64,000 bases of DNA, taken from assembly GCF_000092645.1 (NCBI RefSeq), contig NC_014165.1, forward strand, positions 1,550,001 to 1,614,000. The letters are read 5' to 3'. Shown here piece by piece: positions 42,812 to 52,900 of the stretch (position 1 is the stretch's first letter; every line of letters begins with the position of its first letter). The notes under the pieces are model-generated. The model saw only the letters and a list, made by a program, of their open reading frames with translations, was not told the origin of the DNA and made no database searches. The position numbers and the translations under genes are program-made. This DNA is from Thermobispora bispora DSM 43833. Lineage in GTDB: Bacteria; Actinomycetota; Actinomycetes; Streptosporangiales; Streptosporangiaceae.

Positions 42812-44314
42812 GTGGCAGCACCGCAGAACTACCTCGCGGTCATCAAGGTCGTCGGCATCGGCGGCGGCGGTGTCAACGCCGTCAACCGGATGATCGAAGA
42901 GGGACTCAAGGGCGTCGAGTTCATCGCCATCAATACGGACGCCCAGGCGCTGCTGATGAGTGACGCCGACGTCAAGCTCGACGTCGGCCGTGAGCTCACC
43001 AGGGGCTTGGGCGCAGGCGCCAACCCGGAAGTGGGCCGTAAGGCGGCCGAGGACCACCGTGAGGAGATCGAAGAGGTCCTCAAGGGCGCCGACATGGTCT
43101 TCGTCACCGCCGGTGAGGGCGGCGGCACCGGCACCGGCGGCGCACCCGTCGTGGCCAACATCGCCCGGTCCCTCGGCGCGCTGACGATCGGGGTGGTCAC
43201 CCGGCCGTTCAGCTTCGAGGGCAAGCGCCGGGCCATGCAGGCCGAGGCGGGCATCGAGGCGCTTCGCGAAGAGGTGGACACGCTGATCGTCATTCCCAAC
43301 GATCGGCTGCTGTCGATATCGGACCGCCAGGTCAGCGTGCTCGATGCGTTCAAGGCGGCCGACCAGGTGTTGCTGTCGGGTGTGCAGGGCATCACCGACC
43401 TGATCACCACCCCGGGTCTGATCAACCTTGACTTCGCCGACGTCAAGTCGGTCATGTCCGGGGCCGGGTCGGCCCTCATGGGCATCGGCCAGGCCAGGGG
43501 GGACGACCGCTCCGTCGCCGCGGCCGAGATGGCGGTGTCGAGCCCGCTGCTCGAGGCGAGCATCGACGGCGCCCACGGGGTGCTGCTCTCCATCGCGGGC
43601 GGCTCCGACCTCGGCCTCTTCGAGGTCAACGAGGCGGCGCAGCTCGTCGCCAACGCCGCGGCGCCGGACGCGAACATCATCTTCGGCACCGTGATCGACG
43701 ACGCGCTCGGCGACGAGGTGCGGGTGACGGTGATCGCCGCCGGCTTCGACGAGCCCGTGCACAAGAAGTCGTCGAACGTCACGCCGATGCCCCGGTCCCA
43801 GCAGCCCTCCCGGCCCGCCGTGCCATCGCGGCCGAGCGTGACGCTCACCTCGCCGACGCGGTCGGAGCAGCGGTCCGAGCAGTCCTCCGCCGAGCCCGCG
43901 GAGCGCTCGGAGCCCGACCCGGCCGGGCGGCTCTCGTCGCGCCAGACCACCGGGACGGCCCCGGCGGCCGCGCCGGAGCCCGCATCGGGCGCCGCCGTGT
44001 CGGTCCCGGCGCAGGCGGCACCGGCGGATCCGCCGCTCTCCGCCCCGGCGGCGCAGGAGGCGGATCCGGAGCCGGCCGACAAGGCGCAGCCTGCCGCGGC
44101 CCAGCAGGAGAAGCCGGTCGCGGCGCCGTTCCCCCGGGAGCCGGAGGACGGCAGGACCGAGGCGGGCACGGCCACCGGGCCGGTGTCGATCCCGCGGCCC
44201 ACGCCCGAGCCGCCGACCCCGATCACCTCGCGGATCGGCCAGCCCGGGCCCCGGCGCCCGGTGGTGTTCGAGGAGCAGGAGGAGGAGCTCGACGTGCCGG
44301 ACTTCCTCAAGTGA
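42812..44314 (+). CDS. ftsZ: cell division GTPase FtsZ
   Basis: A 500-residue tubulin-like GTPase that forms the Z ring. The core (residues 1-315) begins [21 protein letters not shown] and contains the tubulin signature GGGTGTG (103-109) and the T7 loop NLDFADV (205-211). Residues about 318-488 form a disordered Pro/Ala/Glu-rich linker, roughly 100 residues longer than in streptomycetes. The C-terminal tail [10 protein letters not shown] is the binding site for SepF and other partners. No ftsA is present, so SepF is the likely membrane anchor. The GTG overlaps nothing upstream; the stop overlaps ylmE. Confidence 0.97.
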
Positions 44315-45060
44315 GCTCCCATCCGTACGGCACCGGAACCGTCGCGGAGGCCGAGCGCCGGGAGGAGCTCGCCTCGGCCCTGGCCCGGGTCGAGCAGCGG
44401 ATCGAGGAGGCCTGCCGGGCCGCCGGGCGGCGGCGCTCCGAGATCACGCTGATCGCGGTGACCAAGACCTACCCGGCCTCCGACATCCGGCTCCTCGCCG
44501 GGCTCGGCGTGACGGACATCGGGGAGAACCGCGATCAGGAGGCGTCGGCCAAGGTCGCCGAATGCGCCGATCTCGACCTGACCTGGCACTTCATCGGCCA
44601 GTTACAGACCAACAAGGCCCGGTCGGTGGTCCGGTACGCCGATCTGATCCACTCGGTGGATCGTTCCCGCCTGGTGACGGTGCTCAGCCGGGAGGCGGTG
44701 CGGGCCGGCCGTGAGGTCGGCTGCCTCGTGCAGGTCTCGCTGGATCCGCCCACGCCCGAGGGGACGAGTGGGCGGGGCGGGGCCCGGCCGGAGGAGGTGC
44801 TCGACCTCGCCGGGCAGATCGCGGCGGCCGAAGGGCTCCGCCTGCGCGGGGTCATGGCCGTCGCACCGCTCGGCGGGGACCCGGCCGAGGCGTTCGCACG
44901 GCTACGGGAGATCGCGCGCGCCGTCCAGGCCGAGCACCCGGACGCCGGGATCATCTCCGCTGGCATGAGCGGCGATCTGGCCGAGGCGATCGCGTGTGGT
45001 GCGACACACGTGCGGATCGGTACGGCGTTGCTCGGCCGCAGGAAGACCTTCGTCAGGTAA
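44311..45060 (+). CDS. ylmE: PLP homeostasis protein, YggS/YlmE family
   Basis: A 249-residue fold-III PLP-binding protein with no catalytic activity of its own. It helps control pyridoxal phosphate and amino-acid balance. The cofactor lysine is in [13 protein letters not shown], and [36 protein letters not shown] and [25 protein letters not shown] are family motifs. It directly overlaps ftsZ by 4 nt. In streptomycetes a laccase-domain gene (ylmD) normally separates the two; it is missing here. Confidence 0.93.
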
Positions 45061-46133: not shown

Positions 46134-47003
46134 ATGCCATTGACGCCCGCTGATGTGCGGAACAAGCAGTTCAGTACCACCCGCCTCAGGCCGGGGTACG
46201 ACGAGGAGGAGGTCGACGCGTTCCTCGACGAGGTCGAGGCCGAGCTCGACCGCCTGATCCAGGAGAACGAGGAGCTCCGTGCGAAGCTGGCCGAGTGCCT
46301 GCGGGGCAAGGTACCGGGAGGCGTCAACGTGCCCGGCCAGCAGATGCAGCAGATGGCCGCGGCCCCGGTCGCGGAGCCGAAGCCGGAGATGATGCCTCCT
46401 CAGGCGGAGCCGAGGGCCCCGGAGCCGGCCCGTCCCGAGCCGGCGCCCGCCGGGGTGGGCATGCCGCCCGGCGAGGACAACATGGACACCGCGGCCCGGG
46501 TGCTCGCGCTCGCCCAGCAGACCGCGGACCAGGCCATCGCCGACGCCCGGCGGGAGGCCGACGAGACGGTGACCCGCGCCCGGCGCGAGGCCGATGACAT
46601 CCTCAGCAAGGCCCGCCGCCAGGCCGAGCAGATCATCAGCGACGCCCGGGCCCGGGCCGAGACCCTGGAGCGCGACGCCCAGGAGCGGCACCGCCAGGCC
46701 ATGGGCTCGCTGGTGCAGGCCCGCGACGAGCTGGAGCGCAAGGTCGAGAAGCTCCGCAGCTTCGAGCGCGAGTACCGCAGCCGCCTCAAGCTGTACCTGG
46801 AGAACCAGCTCGCCGAGCTCAACGTGGCCTCGGAGAACACCGGCGGCTTCCCGGCCCCCGACACGGGCGCGCACGCCATGGCGCACACCGTGCCGCCGGG
46901 CGGCCAGCCGATGCAGGTGTCCCCGAACGTCTACGTGCAGGAACCCACCCAGCACACCGGTGGCTTCCCCGGGCCGGAGGGCCCGCACCCCGAGCGACGG
47001 TGA
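46134..47003 (+). CDS. divIVA: polar growth protein DivIVA (Wag31)
   Basis: A 289-residue coiled-coil protein that marks curved membranes and recruits the polar growth machinery. The N-terminal membrane-binding domain reads LTPADVRNKQFSTTRLRPGYDEEEVDAFLDEVEAELDRL, including the exposed Phe and Arg that contact lipid. A Pro/Ala/Met-rich linker (about 60-115) follows. A long Ala/Arg/Glu heptad coiled coil runs from about 118 to 230, and a short Gly/Pro-rich tail ends the protein. The ATG has AAGGAGA 7 nt upstream. Confidence 0.95.
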   Translation: MPLTPADVRNKQFSTTRLRPGYDEEEVDAFLDEVEAELDRLIQENEELRAKLAECLRGKVPGGVNVPGQQMQQMAAAPVAEPKPEMMPPQAEPRAPEPARPEPAPAGVGMPPGEDNMDTAARVLALAQQTADQAIADARREADETVTRARREADDILSKARRQAEQIISDARARAETLERDAQERHRQAMGSLVQARDELERKVEKLRSFEREYRSRLKLYLENQLAELNVASENTGGFPAPDTGAHAMAHTVPPGGQPMQVSPNVYVQEPTQHTGGFPGPEGPHPERR

Positions 47004-47052
47004 GCGGAACGCATTTCCCCCTGGCCGCGTGCGGTGACGTGGAGAGCCGATC

Positions 47053-48867
47053 GTGATCCTCGTCAGTGCGGCGCTGGTACTGGCCGCGATCATCCTGCTG
47101 ATCGCGGGTGTGGTGCTGGCCACTCCCTTCCTGGTGATGTGGTCGATCGTGATCAGCGCCCTCGCCGCGGTCTGCCTGCTGATCGGGGTGCTGCTGCGCC
47201 GGCATGAGCTGTTCCCCGCCGGTGGGCGCACCGCCGGACAGGCTCCCGCCTCCCCACAGGGGACGTCGGTCGCGTCGTTCGCGCCGCAGGGAGTCCTGCC
47301 GGTCGGCGTGGCGCTCGGTGGAGCGCCGCCGATGGCCAGCCCGGTGGCGGTGGCACAGCCGGGAACGCAGCCGCCCTCCGCTCCGCCTGGGCGCCTCCAG
47401 GCGGCGGCGCCGACTCTCCGACCGGCGGCTCATGATGGCCGGGGTCTCGCCCCTGATGCGATCGTGGTGGTGATTCCGGGGCGCAGACGCTTCCATCTGC
47501 CGAGCTGCCGCCAGGTCGTGGGGCGCCAGGTGGAGGAGCTCACCCACGAGGAGGCCAGGGAAGAGGGGTTCACCCCCTGCACCGCCTGCTTGGCCGAGAT
47601 CTCCGCCCACGCGGCGGAGGCGCGGGAAGCGGACGGCCGCGGGGCGACCGCCGTGACGCCGCCGACCGGCCGGGAACGGCCGGCCGACGAGACGGGGCCG
47701 CCGGACCGGGCGGCCGAGCCGGGTGGCTCCTCCCGGCCCGGGCAGACCGGCCACGGCCCGCGAGAGAAGGCGGACGAAGCGGCCTCGCCCGAGAAGGTCT
47801 CCCCCGAGGCGGAGACCGGCACGGCCCGCGAGGACCGGTCCGCGCCGGATGACGGCGGCGATCAGGCCACGGCGGAGACCCGCGTCACGGCCGCAGGCGA
47901 TGCTCCGGTGACCGGCGGCACGACCGCCGGCAGCGCACAGGCGGAACCCTCGGCCGCACCACGGGAGGCCGCCGCAGCCGAGCCGGGCGCGTTCAGCTGG
48001 TTCCGGCCCAACGCGACCACGGCGGCCAGACCATCGGCCGAGAAGCAGGCATCGGGCGCTCCAGCCGACGCGGAGGCCACGGACGCCGCAACCCCGGCCG
48101 CACCGGACCCGGAGCAGGCCGGTGGCGGGCCCGAGGAGCCCGGTGACGCCCCGGACGCCACGGCTCAGCCGGACCGCCCCACGAATGAGGCGGCGGCCGC
48201 CGCGGCGGGGGAAACCCCGGGAACGTCCCGGCCCGTGACGCGGCCGGACGGTGGACAGAGCGCCGAGCAGGCCGCCGAGCCGGTGGCCGGCCAGCCCGGC
48301 ACCGGCGATCCCGGAACCTACGACGAGGCGGACGACACGGCCGTGATCCCGGCGATCGCCCGCCCGCCCGCCCGGCCAGCCCAGGACCGCGACGGCCAGG
48401 GTGCGCCACCGCGCGCGGGCGGCGGCACAGGCCCACGGCAGGACGACCGGCCGACCTCCGATGACGCCGGCCCTTCGGCCGAGGCGGCGAGCCCGTCCTC
48501 CCCGAAGCCGGCAGAGCCGGCCCACGAACCGGGCCGGCCGGCGGATGGGACGGAGCCGGCCGGGAGCCCGGGATCCGAGCCCACGGGCAGCGTCGATCCC
48601 GCCTCGGATGCCCCGGAGGCACCGCACCGGTCCGAGGACGCGAGCGAGGAATCGCGGCCATCCGGCCAGGCCGAGGACGAGCCGGCCGCCGGGCGTGACC
48701 GCCTCGCCCCCGGCACGAGGGTGACGGTGATGATCGGCACCCGGCGCTACCACAGCACCGACTGCCCGCTCATCAAGGGGATGGGCGCGGACGGCGTGCA
48801 GACCATGACCGTCGAAGAGGCCGAGCAGGCCGGGCTGACGCACTGCTCGGTCTGCCAGAACGCCTGA
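47053..48867 (+). CDS. unrecognised membrane protein with two HxxxC-CxxC modules
   Basis: A 604-residue protein I cannot assign. Residues about 3-28 and 30-48 are two membrane helices. A module at about 136-180 has His148, Cys152, Cys176 and Cys179 (RRRFHLPSC, then FTPCTAC). A matching module at the very C-terminus (about 557-604) has His567, Cys571, Cys598 and Cys601 (TRRYHSTDC, then LTHCSVC). Both have the form YH-x3-C-x23-26-C-x2-C with an EEA segment, resembling Ada-type or nuclease-associated metal-binding motifs. About 370 residues of Ala/Pro/Glu/Asp-rich disorder separate them. The GTG has GGAGAG upstream. It follows divIVA by 49 nt and may share its transcript. Confidence 0.75.
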   Translation: MILVSAALVLAAIILLIAGVVLATPFLVMWSIVISALAAVCLLIGVLLRRHELFPAGGRTAGQAPASPQGTSVASFAPQGVLPVGVALGGAPPMASPVAVAQPGTQPPSAPPGRLQAAAPTLRPAAHDGRGLAPDAIVVVIPGRRRFHLPSCRQVVGRQVEELTHEEAREEGFTPCTACLAEISAHAAEAREADGRGATAVTPPTGRERPADETGPPDRAAEPGGSSRPGQTGHGPREKADEAASPEKVSPEAETGTAREDRSAPDDGGDQATAETRVTAAGDAPVTGGTTAGSAQAEPSAAPREAAAAEPGAFSWFRPNATTAARPSAEKQASGAPADAEATDAATPAAPDPEQAGGGPEEPGDAPDATAQPDRPTNEAAAAAAGETPGTSRPVTRPDGGQSAEQAAEPVAGQPGTGDPGTYDEADDTAVIPAIARPPARPAQDRDGQGAPPRAGGGTGPRQDDRPTSDDAGPSAEAASPSSPKPAEPAHEPGRPADGTEPAGSPGSEPTGSVDPASDAPEAPHRSEDASEESRPSGQAEDEPAAGRDRLAPGTRVTVMIGTRRYHSTDCPLIKGMGADGVQTMTVEEAEQAGLTHCSVCQNA

Positions 48868-49490: not shown

Positions 49491-52400
49491 TCAGGCCTTC
49501 TTGAGCTGGAAGGTGAGGCCGAGGTCGGCGTCCTCGTGCCGGGGCAGCTCCTCGGCGGGCGCGCCCTCGGTGAAGCTCACCGCGAGCACCTCCTCAGCGA
49601 TGCCGCTCCCGTTCGCCCGCAGGGTCTCCGCCAGCTCACCGTCGGCCGACCACCACAGCTCGATCCGGTCGGTGATGGACAGGCCGGTCGCCTTGCGCGC
49701 CTCCTGGATCAGGCGGATCACCTCGCGGACCAGGCCGGCCCGGCGCAGCTCGTCGGTGATGGTGAGGTCGAGCGCCACCGTCTCACCGGTGCCGGTGTCG
49801 ACCGCGCCGGTCTCCACCGCCCAGCCCTCGCGCGGTTGCTCGGTCACGATCACGTCGTCCGCGCCGAGCTCGACCGTGCCGACCTCCGCCACCTCGACCG
49901 TGGCGGTCTCCCCGGCGCGCAGGGTCTGGGCGAGCACGGTGGGATCGGCGGCGGTGATCGCCGCGGCCACCTGCTTGGTGCGCGGCCCGAAGCGCTTGCC
50001 GAGCGAGCGGAAGTTCGGCTTGACGATGAACGTCACCAGGTCGGACGAGAACGAGGAGAGGTCCTCCAGCCGCTGGACGTTCAGCTCCTCGGCGATCAGC
50101 TCGCGCAGCTCCCCGGGGAGCCCGGCCCAGCCGGGGGCGCCGATCAGCGCCCGGGCGAGCGGCTGGCGGGTCTTCACGCCCGACGAGGCGCGGGCGGACC
50201 GGCCCAGCTCGACCAGCCGGCGGACCAGAGCCATCTGCTCGGACAGCTCGGGGTCGAGCAGCTCGCTCTTCACCTCCGGCCACCGCGCCAGGTGCACCGA
50301 CGTCGGGTCGTCCGGGGTGCGCAGCACGCCCCAGATGTAGTCGGTGATGAACGGCACCAGCGGGGCCATCAGCCGGGTGACCGTCTCCAGGCACTCGTAC
50401 AGCGTGGCGAAGGCGGCTTCCTCACCCGACCAGAACCGGCGGCGGGAGCGCCGCACGTACCAGTTGGACAGGTCGTCGAGGAACTCGGTGAGCCGCCGCC
50501 CGGCCCGCGCCGTGTCGAAGTCCTCCATCGACGCGGTGACCTCGGAGACGGTCCGGTGCAGCTCGGCGAGGATCCACCGGTCGATGAGCGGCCGCCGGTC
50601 GTACGCCGGGGCCTCGGCGAGCTTCGCCGGCGACCAGGACTCGGCGTTGGCGTAGAGGACGAAGAACGAGGCCGTGTTCCAGTAGGTGAGCAGCACCCTC
50701 CGGACGATCTCCTCCAGCGCGCCGTGGCCGATCCGGCGGGGCGACCAGGGCGAACCGGAGGTGGCCATGAACCAGCGCAGCGCGTCGGCGCCGTGCTGCT
50801 CCATGAGCGGGATCGGCTCCAGCACGTTGCCGAAGTGCTTGCTCATCTTCCGGCCGTCCTCGGCGAGGATCAGGCCGAGGCAGAGCACGTTCTCGTACGA
50901 CGAGCGGTCGAACACGAGCGTGCTGACCGCCATCATCGAGTAGAACCAGCCCCGCGTCTGGTCGATGGCCTCGCAGATGAACTGGCCCGGGAACGACTTC
51001 TCGAAGACGTCCTTGTTGATGTGCGGCGCGCCCCACTGCGCGAACGGCATGGCGCCCGAGTCGTACCAGACGTCGATCACGTCGGGGACCCGCTTGGCCT
51101 CGGCGCCGCAGGTGGGGCAGGGGAACACCACCTCGTCCACGTACGGGCGGTGCGGGTCGAGACCGGTCAGGTCGCGCCCGGCGTACTCCCCGAGCTCCTT
51201 CAGCGAGCCGACGCAGGTGACGTGCTCCTCGGGGCAGATCCACAGCGGCAGCGGGGTGCCCCAGTAGCGGGACCGCGACAGCGCCCAGTCGACGTTGTTG
51301 CGCAGCCACTCCCCGTACCGGCCGTGCTTGATCGTGGCGGGGAACCAGTTGGTCCGCTCGTTCTCCGCGAGCAGCCGGTCCTTGATCGCGGTGGTCCGGA
51401 TGTACCACGACGGCAGGGCGTAGTACAGCAGCGGGGTGTGGCAGCGCCAGCAGTGCGGGTAGCTGTGCTCGAAGTGCCCGCCCTTGAACAGCAGGCCGCG
51501 CTCGCGCAGCAGCTCGGTGAGCGGCCCGTTGGCGTCCTTGAAGAACATGCCGCCGACGACCGGGACGTCGGGCAGGAACCGGCCGTCCGGGCCGACCGGG
51601 TTCACCACCGGCAGGCCGTACCGCTTGCAGACGGCCATGTCGTCGGCGCCGAACGCGGGGGCCAGGTGGACCAGGCCGGTGCCGTCCTCGACGGTCACGT
51701 AGGTGCCGAGCGTCACGTAGTGGGCGTCCGCGATGTCGACGAAGTCGAACGGCCGCGAGTAGGTCGTGCGCTCCAGGTCGGCCCCGGAGAACCGCTCCAC
51801 CACCTCGGCGTCCTCGCCCAGCACCTGCCGGAGCAGCGGCTCGGCCACGACGAGCACCTCGTCACCGTGGCGGGCGGCGACGTAGGTGACCTCGGGGTGC
51901 ACCGCGACCGCCGTGTTGGACACCAGGGTCCACGGGGTGGTGGTCCAGATCAGCAGCGAGGCCCCGAGCTCGGCGAGCCGGCCGGAGGTCGCCGGCATGC
52001 GCACGTACACCGAAGGGCTGCTGATCGTCTCGTACCCGCCCGGCTGGCCCAGCTCGTGGTCGGAGAGCGGGGTGCCGCAGCGCGGGCAGTACGGGGTGAT
52101 CCGGAAGTCGCGGAAGAGCAGGCCCTTCTCCCAGATCACCTTGAGCGACCACCAGACGGCCTCGATATAGGAGGGGTCCATCGTGCGGTAGGCCTGGGAC
52201 ATGTCCACCCAGTAGCCCATCCGCTCGGTCATCTGCTCGAACGCGTCGACGTACCGCAGGACCGACTCGCGGCAGCGCTTGTTGAACTCCGCGATGCCGT
52301 ACGACTCGATCTCGGGCTTGCCGGAGAGGCCGAGCTCCTTCTCCACCGCGACCTCGACCGGGAGGCCGTGGCAGTCCCAGCCGGCCTTGCGCGGCACGTA

Positions 52401-52643
52401 GTAGCCCCGCATGGACTTGTAGCGGGGGAAGACGTCCTTGAAGACGCGCGCCTCGACGTGGTGGACCCCGGGCATGCCGTTCGCCGTGGGCGGGCCCTCA
52501 TAGAAGATCCAAGGGGGGCCGTCCGCGTTCTGCTCCAGCGAGCGCTCGAACACCTTCCCGTCCCGCCACCGCCTGAGCACCTCGCGTTCCATGGCGGGCA
52601 GGTCGACCTGCGCGGGGAGAGCGGGGAAGTAGTGGTTGGACAT
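49491..52643 (-). CDS. ileS: isoleucyl-tRNA synthetase with swapped HIGH motif
   Basis: A 1050-residue class I synthetase. The usual HxGH signature is replaced by GVHH (Gly59-Val60-His61-His62, in ANGMPGVHH), with the first and third residues exchanged. The KMSKS loop reads RKMSKHFG. The editing domain has WTTTPWTLVSNTAVAVHP. KAGWDCHGLPVE, two CPxCG zinc-type segments and the eukaryote-like C-terminal region fit type-2 IleRS. Type-2 enzymes tolerate mupirocin, and the swapped motif has been linked to very high tolerance. The ATG at 52643 is chosen because it gives the family start and lies beyond the T-box leader. Confidence 0.95.
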   Translation of the reverse strand: MSNHYFPALPAQVDLPAMEREVLRRWRDGKVFERSLEQNADGPPWIFYEGPPTANGMPGVHHVEARVFKDVFPRYKSMRGYYVPRKAGWDCHGLPVEVAVEKELGLSGKPEIESYGIAEFNKRCRESVLRYVDAFEQMTERMGYWVDMSQAYRTMDPSYIEAVWWSLKVIWEKGLLFRDFRITPYCPRCGTPLSDHELGQPGGYETISSPSVYVRMPATSGRLAELGASLLIWTTTPWTLVSNTAVAVHPEVTYVAARHGDEVLVVAEPLLRQVLGEDAEVVERFSGADLERTTYSRPFDFVDIADAHYVTLGTYVTVEDGTGLVHLAPAFGADDMAVCKRYGLPVVNPVGPDGRFLPDVPVVGGMFFKDANGPLTELLRERGLLFKGGHFEHSYPHCWRCHTPLLYYALPSWYIRTTAIKDRLLAENERTNWFPATIKHGRYGEWLRNNVDWALSRSRYWGTPLPLWICPEEHVTCVGSLKELGEYAGRDLTGLDPHRPYVDEVVFPCPTCGAEAKRVPDVIDVWYDSGAMPFAQWGAPHINKDVFEKSFPGQFICEAIDQTRGWFYSMMAVSTLVFDRSSYENVLCLGLILAEDGRKMSKHFGNVLEPIPLMEQHGADALRWFMATSGSPWSPRRIGHGALEEIVRRVLLTYWNTASFFVLYANAESWSPAKLAEAPAYDRRPLIDRWILAELHRTVSEVTASMEDFDTARAGRRLTEFLDDLSNWYVRRSRRRFWSGEEAAFATLYECLETVTRLMAPLVPFITDYIWGVLRTPDDPTSVHLARWPEVKSELLDPELSEQMALVRRLVELGRSARASSGVKTRQPLARALIGAPGWAGLPGELRELIAEELNVQRLEDLSSFSSDLVTFIVKPNFRSLGKRFGPRTKQVAAAITAADPTVLAQTLRAGETATVEVAEVGTVELGADDVIVTEQPREGWAVETGAVDTGTGETVALDLTITDELRRAGLVREVIRLIQEARKATGLSITDRIELWWSADGELAETLRANGSGIAEEVLAVSFTEGAPAEELPRHEDADLGLTFQLKKA

Positions 52644-52649
52644 CGTCGG

Positions 52650-52900
52650 GCGGGAACCTCCACGCGTGGAACGGACATGGCGCGAAGGGACGAAGCCGGG
52701 ACGGCTCCGCGGTACCACCCTTCTTGACGCCCGGGCGGCCGGGCGCCCACTCATTTCGCTTGCTGCCGGTTCTACTCAGCCGGGGAGGCCTTTCTTCCGG
52801 CGGCTCCGGGGTGATCTTCCCACCGCGACCCGCCCCGGGCTCACACCGTCCCCGGGTCGCTGAAGCGAGTGGATGCGGAGGTACTCGTCCCCATCAACGC
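52650..52900 (-). ncRNA. T-box riboswitch of ileS
   Basis: On the minus strand the leader contains the T-box core GGGTGGTACCGCGG (52720-52707), whose TGGT pairs with the tRNA ACCA end. Upstream lie GACGAGTACC and a helix-loop with an ATC triplet (52815-52813) in GGGAAGATCACC, a plausible specifier codon for tRNA-Ile(GAU). No terminator with a U-tract follows the T-box; instead GTGGAGG lies near the ileS start. This fits the translational, short-Stem-I ileS T-boxes of actinobacteria. Uncharged tRNA-Ile should raise IleRS synthesis. Confidence 0.9.

Follow-up and report, generated by a model that had tools for sequence, protein, structure and literature searches.

DivIVA directs polar growth in actinobacteria and, to our knowledge, few of its membrane partners have been described in filamentous genera beyond Streptomyces and the Corynebacteriales. 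A described case is GlpR (Cgl0885) of Corynebacterium glutamicum, an integral membrane protein that spans the membrane with three helices, has two disordered cytoplasmic regions of opposite charge, and interacts with both the Wag31 (DivIVA) N-domain and a divisome factor (PMC10522489). With respect to genes that adjoin divIVA, a review of actinobacterial signature genes, in excerpt, names SCO2078 (YlmG) as the conserved neighbour and not the gene considered here (PMC4255298). The function of a second protein of relevance, Rv2144c of M. tuberculosis, is unknown (PMC5405230); going by gene order, this is probably the name of the mycobacteria-like divIVA neighbour discussed below. Finally, the domain found in our protein belongs with that of the DNA-repair protein Ada, in which Cys38 is the residue that accepts the methyl group (PMC10814553).

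A conserved gene beside divIVA

In the window, that is, the whole stretch of 64,000 nucleotides of Thermobispora bispora DSM 43833 analysed here, a membrane-protein gene lies directly 3' of divIVA (Table 1). The open reading frame and the ligand numbering of the earlier note (H148/C152/C176/C179 and H567/C571/C598/C601) are correct, and its placement of the gene at the end of an ftsZ-ylmE-sepF-ylmG-divIVA set agrees with the order seen in the window and in most relatives, ftsZ-ylmE-sepF-ylmG-divIVA-[gene]-ileS, with ileS on the opposite strand. Since no terminator-like site was found in the 49-base gap (47004..47052) that follows divIVA, both genes are likely to be co-transcribed. Upstream in the window, the ylmE reading frame and the end of ftsZ share 4 bases (44300-44320), with no ylmD between the two genes.

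Table 1. Features of the divIVA-adjacent locus, in window positions
Feature	Coordinates	Strand	Basis or remark
divIVA, directly 5' of the membrane-protein gene	46134..47003	+	ORF; DivIVA adjoins the orthologue in 78/80 named loci
Intergenic gap between divIVA and the membrane-protein gene	47004..47052	+	49 bases, with a GGAGA ribosome-binding-like site ahead of the GTG
Membrane-protein gene	47053..48867	+	GTG start, 604 aa; ORF confirmed
Two-helix membrane hairpin, about aa 3-22 and 25-50	47059..47202	+	Model; charge count; homologous hairpins in other families
Disordered linker 1, aa 51-131	47203..47445	+	pLDDT mostly <50
Ada-like zinc module 1, aa 132-185	47446..47607	+	Ligands H148, C152, C176, C179; pLDDT 93; Ada N-domain is the top fold match
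Disordered linker 2, aa 186-554	47608..48714	+	Ala-, Pro-, Gly- and Glu-rich composition; pLDDT mostly <50
Aromatic short motif F-S-W-F-R-P-N, aa 314-320, consensus [GSD]-W-F-x-R	47992..48012	+	Kept in 73/80 named loci
Ada-like zinc module 2, aa 555-604, extreme C-terminus	48715..48864	+	Ligands H567, C571, C598, C601; hhalign; 1u8b fold match
ileS, conserved convergent neighbour, 3' of the membrane-protein gene	49491..52754	-	Neighbourhood reading in relatives

When the full-length protein was used as query against genome contigs no match was obtained, the peptides chosen being mostly linker, and the search succeeded with a module profile. Within the same family, 118 of 160 genomes matched a module-1 profile, and module 2 as a query alone found matches in 44 of 60 relatives. 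Neighbourhoods were read in 40 regions, and the ftsZ-to-ileS order was present in almost all orthologous loci. From a named collection we kept 80 loci, almost all of which carry Streptosporangiaceae names (Nonomuraea, Microbispora, Streptosporangium, Planobispora, Planotetraspora, Sphaerisporangium, Acrocarpospora and others) and one actinobacterial MAG. The earlier note had staked its reading on the gene staying next to divIVA and on the modules being conserved, and both expectations held: divIVA adjoins the gene in 78 of these loci, the other two being fragments that start near the gene, and 77 of the 80 encode both modules. The gap after divIVA ranges from 20 to 250 bases (median 43.5) in the 78 named loci, 73 of which have GTG as the assigned start. 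No phage relatives were found, and the sole "plasmid" match is an 11.85-Mb Nonomuraea record.

The twin-module layout emphasized at the outset is usual (119 of 142 non-identical orthologue sequences) but not obligatory, as there are relatives with the first module only, the second only, or the hairpin only. Profile searches in six frames found the C-terminal module alone in eleven loci and the first module alone in four; in three further loci near contig ends the absence of the second module is probably a limit of the sequence, as probably is one case in which it lies in another frame. The recurrence of the modules, taken with the identity of their first ligand (His in 299 of 299, see below), is far beyond chance. 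Between divIVA and ileS no counterpart was found in Streptomyces-like genomes and several other families, so DivIVA does not, in general, need this gene for its function. Among thirteen genomes noted in this respect, matches to the DivIVA N-domain number 4-5 per genome in same-family relatives without the zinc module against 1-2 in module-bearing ones, a correlation that may be phylogenetic in origin.

Ada-type modules, membrane hairpin and linker

The two modules share a common origin (hhalign 99.4%) and are homologues of the Ada zinc domain, and the Ada-type resemblance pointed out in the earlier note is a true homology on which profile, predicted fold and ligand positions concur. Structure prediction, proposed in the earlier note as a check, gave confident folds, with pLDDT of about 93-97 for the modules in the full-length model and a mean of 93.4 for module 1 by AlphaFold2. 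Searched against the PDB with Foldseek, module 1 retrieved only Ada N-domain structures at meaningful probability (1wpk 0.91, 1zgw 0.84, 1adn 0.60), and VIA-align superposed it on 1u8b over 49 residues at 2.4 A with 29% identity; with so small a domain, the scores themselves stay modest (Z 4.7; Foldseek E 0.13). Module 2, within the full-length model, matches Ada structures independently, including 1u8b. By sequence, Ada ranks first when the module profile is run against PDB sequences (E 0.014), 28 of 32 modules weakly match Pfam Ada_Zn_binding, and hhalign against the true Ada domains of relatives gives 85.9% for module 1 and 94.5% for module 2. Profiles are needed for this purpose, phmmer with module 2 alone having found no match among PDB chains. 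Homologs of transcription elongation factor 1 appeared as weak PDB matches of similar score and were dropped, the fold search giving them no support. In module 1, conservation extends far past the ligands (VxVxPGRxRYHxxxCRxLxGR...EEA...G), which suggests a binding surface.

In the alignment, the module His stands opposite the Ada Cys of "YCRPxC", exactly at the position of the methyl-accepting Cys38, and the other three Cys of the two domains align with one another. This His was found in 299 of 299 modules by a scan pattern that did not require it. As Cys38 is replaced throughout, the modules are unable to work as Ada and, at the level of these residues, the methyl-transfer reaction is lost; T. 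bispora encodes a separate, ordinary Ada that retains the Cys. Across both modules none of the four ligands varies, the His that stands in for the reactive Cys included, and no further Cys is conserved, so that a structural His-Cys3 zinc site is likely; the ligands are assigned from homology, and the predicted models contain no metal.

The two N-terminal hydrophobic helices that were said to anchor the protein are seen in the predicted model. Helix 2 is followed at once by a stretch rich in Arg and Lys, and over 161 orthologues the mean count of K+R is 2.47 after helix 2 versus 0.52 in the loop between the helices; by the positive-inside rule, this excess predicts that linker and modules are cytoplasmic. 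Complex I subunits came up as a fold match of the hairpin, which we take as a common helix-hairpin arrangement.

The gene 3' of divIVA was also read in 42 further loci of diverse families, where three states occur: no such gene (Streptomyces-like and many others), a hairpin with one or more modules, and a hairpin without module. The last state is found in mycobacteria-like genomes, with short tails, and in Nocardiopsis-like genomes, with long tails, the taxa being inferred from the sequences. Over their full length, the hairpins of these module-less lineages can be aligned to the Streptosporangiaceae hairpins (hhalign 92.8-97.8%, against 1.1% for a control, the hairpins of an unlinked module protein). 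Because homologous hairpins follow divIVA elsewhere without a module, the divIVA-side hairpin is probably ancestral and the zinc modules were added later, or else the modules were lost repeatedly; and because the core hairpin beside divIVA is common to distant families, the link to divIVA would predate the modules. The protein fits a group that we define here, the divIVA-adjacent membrane-hairpin proteins of Actinomycetes, which directly follow divIVA on its own strand and share one profile of an N-terminal two-helix hairpin. Five Nocardiopsis-like divIVA neighbours carry the tail motif R-T-D-G/D-L/V-G-K-A/S-S-V about 20-30 residues past the hairpin. In one divIVA neighbour, from a class-level family (f23), a module-like stretch, TVLVVNGEPYFYVAEG...EELPLAEAIELGFEPY, has apparently lost its first metal ligands, and the locus ends ahead of the last Cys. 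Elsewhere, unlinked families of Actinomycetes (seventeen loci) show a two-helix hairpin, often a coiled-coil-like stretch, and then one C-terminal, His-type Ada-like module; judged from these sequences, the pairing of a hairpin with an Ada-like module recurs with unrelated hairpins. In the five of these unlinked proteins that were tested, no Pfam family scored above cut-off.

The long inter-module linker is disordered, as the earlier note had it, but its length of about 370 residues did not stand: C179 and H567 are separated by 387 residues, and orthologous linkers, which are of low complexity and unalignable between genera, span 51-664 residues, so that length is no fixed design feature. One motif survives in this otherwise diverging linker, which argues for selection on it. 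Its fuller consensus is [GSD]-W-F-[GSA]-R (S315-W316-F317-R318-P319 in the window); it is doubled in most Microbispora and Planotetraspora, takes the form W-x-A-F-x-R-P in Acrocarpospora, and is missing where the linkers of a genus group are of the "PSAW" or "TDWVP" type. Of the 119 distinct inter-module linkers, 77 contain W-F, whereas shuffling (500 shuffles per linker) gave 1.9 on average and never more than 6, a figure that overstates the significance because related sequences are not independent. Other 5-mers of the linker are mainly composition-driven repeats. One Nocardiopsis-like protein without modules retains L-N-W-F-A-R-R.

A candidate adaptor at DivIVA-marked membrane

The reading that we favour, to which we give a probability of about one half, is that the protein acts as a membrane-tethered cytoplasmic adaptor at sites marked by DivIVA and not as a sensor; we hold our confidence at that level because the step from linkage to function has to be inferred. 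The two-helix hairpin would keep the protein in the membrane and leave the remainder in the cytoplasm, where DivIVA assembles. The two Ada-fold modules, each built on one zinc through His-Cys3, would flank the flexible linker as small binding domains, and the W-F-x-R motif within the linker would offer a docking site for a partner. In this way, the protein could keep factors of the cell envelope or of division at the membrane that DivIVA marks, that is, at hyphal tips, branch points and septa. Such a role has a precedent, since GlpR binds the Wag31 N-domain (PMC10522489). The scaffold put forward in the earlier note is still the best reading when taken as an adaptor, but its image of a protein that reaches across the pole is without support because the length of the linker is unconstrained.

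Adjacency is no proof of shared function, and ileS adjoins the gene too. The gene might accordingly be a passenger, kept beside divIVA through chromosomal inertia while serving an unrelated function in the envelope, as ileS, lspA and others are likewise conserved neighbours and as unlinked proteins with a hairpin and one such module exist. Nevertheless, in many families hairpin homologues stay directly after divIVA even as the modules and the linker vary. This persistence points to selection for the link to divIVA, and we consider the passenger explanation unlikely, if worth keeping in mind. That the modules might retain the ancestral binding of the DNA backbone, and so hold the chromosome or RNA near the pole from a membrane tether, is an idea that draws on the DNA complexes of the Ada N-domain (1u8b, 1zgw) and on the conserved basic residues of module 1 (PGRxR, CR, GR). 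It is weakened by the replacement of the basic pair of Ada CKRC, the second residue of which is an invariant Arg, with mostly small residues (CTAC, CSVC), and by the strongly acidic helix EEAREE of module 1, and we regard a nucleic-acid binder as distinctly improbable.

The earlier note had also raised a metal or redox sensor, in which the His-Cys3 sites would take up or release metal, or undergo oxidation, and thereby signal to the growth pole. Cys-rich metal sites on a membrane tether would suit such a task, and a His in place of one Cys could tune affinity; on the other hand, neither module shows any variation at its four ligands or any additional conserved Cys, the ligand motif lies within a stable predicted fold, and in the loci read no metal or redox genes adjoin and nothing nearby hints at metal homeostasis. 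By this argument, which is not a test, we set the sensor aside as very improbable. An Ada-type methyl acceptor relocated to the membrane, suggested by the homology and fold of the modules, can be dismissed almost entirely, as every module has His for Cys38, which already refutes the known mechanism, and the genome has its separate true Ada with Cys.

With respect to the adaptor, it is tempting to go one step further and to propose, tentatively and at something short of even odds, that actinobacteria turned an Ada-type zinc domain from DNA repair into a non-catalytic binding module for the machinery of the cell pole: its nucleophile would have become His, and it would have been joined once or twice, together with a W-F-x-R docking motif, to an older hairpin encoded alongside DivIVA, yielding an undescribed adaptor family of filamentous actinobacteria. 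The protein is in any case a candidate partner for DivIVA, a widely conserved membrane protein beside divIVA in which modules and short motif can be mutated separately, and it illustrates how the Ada repair domain is reused after the loss of its reactive residue.

Relation to described families

The earlier note recognised no described family with this layout, and indeed no Pfam or NCBIfam model covers the protein above cut-off. PF02805 (Ada metal-binding) matches the whole protein with 18.8 bits (E 0.0017), below its curated cut-off of 23 bits; PF19746 (DUF6233) reaches 13.2 bits, below 27.6 bits; and NCBIfam models gave no match at E up to 10. In the open-licence literature we found no description of modules combined with a divIVA-linked hairpin, and one may exist elsewhere. 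The module itself is a variant of a known domain. With the Ada N-terminal zinc domain (PF02805; 1adn, 1eyf, 1u8b, 1zgw, 1wpk) it shares the overall fold, the spacing and three of the four zinc ligands, the remaining Cys; it differs by the His for Cys38, by the membrane anchor and by the presence of two copies per chain, and unlike Ada the membrane protein has no AraC-type or methyltransferase domain.

DUF6233 (PF19746) weakly matches most modules (28 of 32, best E 7e-6). As the members read carry their own H-x3-C...C-x2-C, DUF6233 is perhaps another Ada-like zinc module; unlike our protein, these members show no hairpin and lie scattered at several places in one Streptomyces-like genome, where the domain occurs five times. 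The unlinked proteins of Actinomycetes, for which no named family was found, resemble ours by two helices followed by one His-type module, but their hairpin is another one (1.1%), the module is single, and no DivIVA lies beside those checked. GlpR, a membrane protein with cytoplasmic disordered regions, compares only in the way it works: it has three helices versus two in our model, no zinc module is reported for it, and it belongs to another locus (Cgl0885, near glp Cgl0883). The mycobacteria-like two-helix protein, for its part, lacks the zinc module and the W-F motif and has a short tail (65-213 aa in total for complete ones), but shares with ours the position after divIVA and a homologous hairpin (hhalign 92.8%, control 1.1%). 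The same hairpin beside divIVA in mycobacteria-like genomes thus gives the present protein relevance for better-studied organisms.
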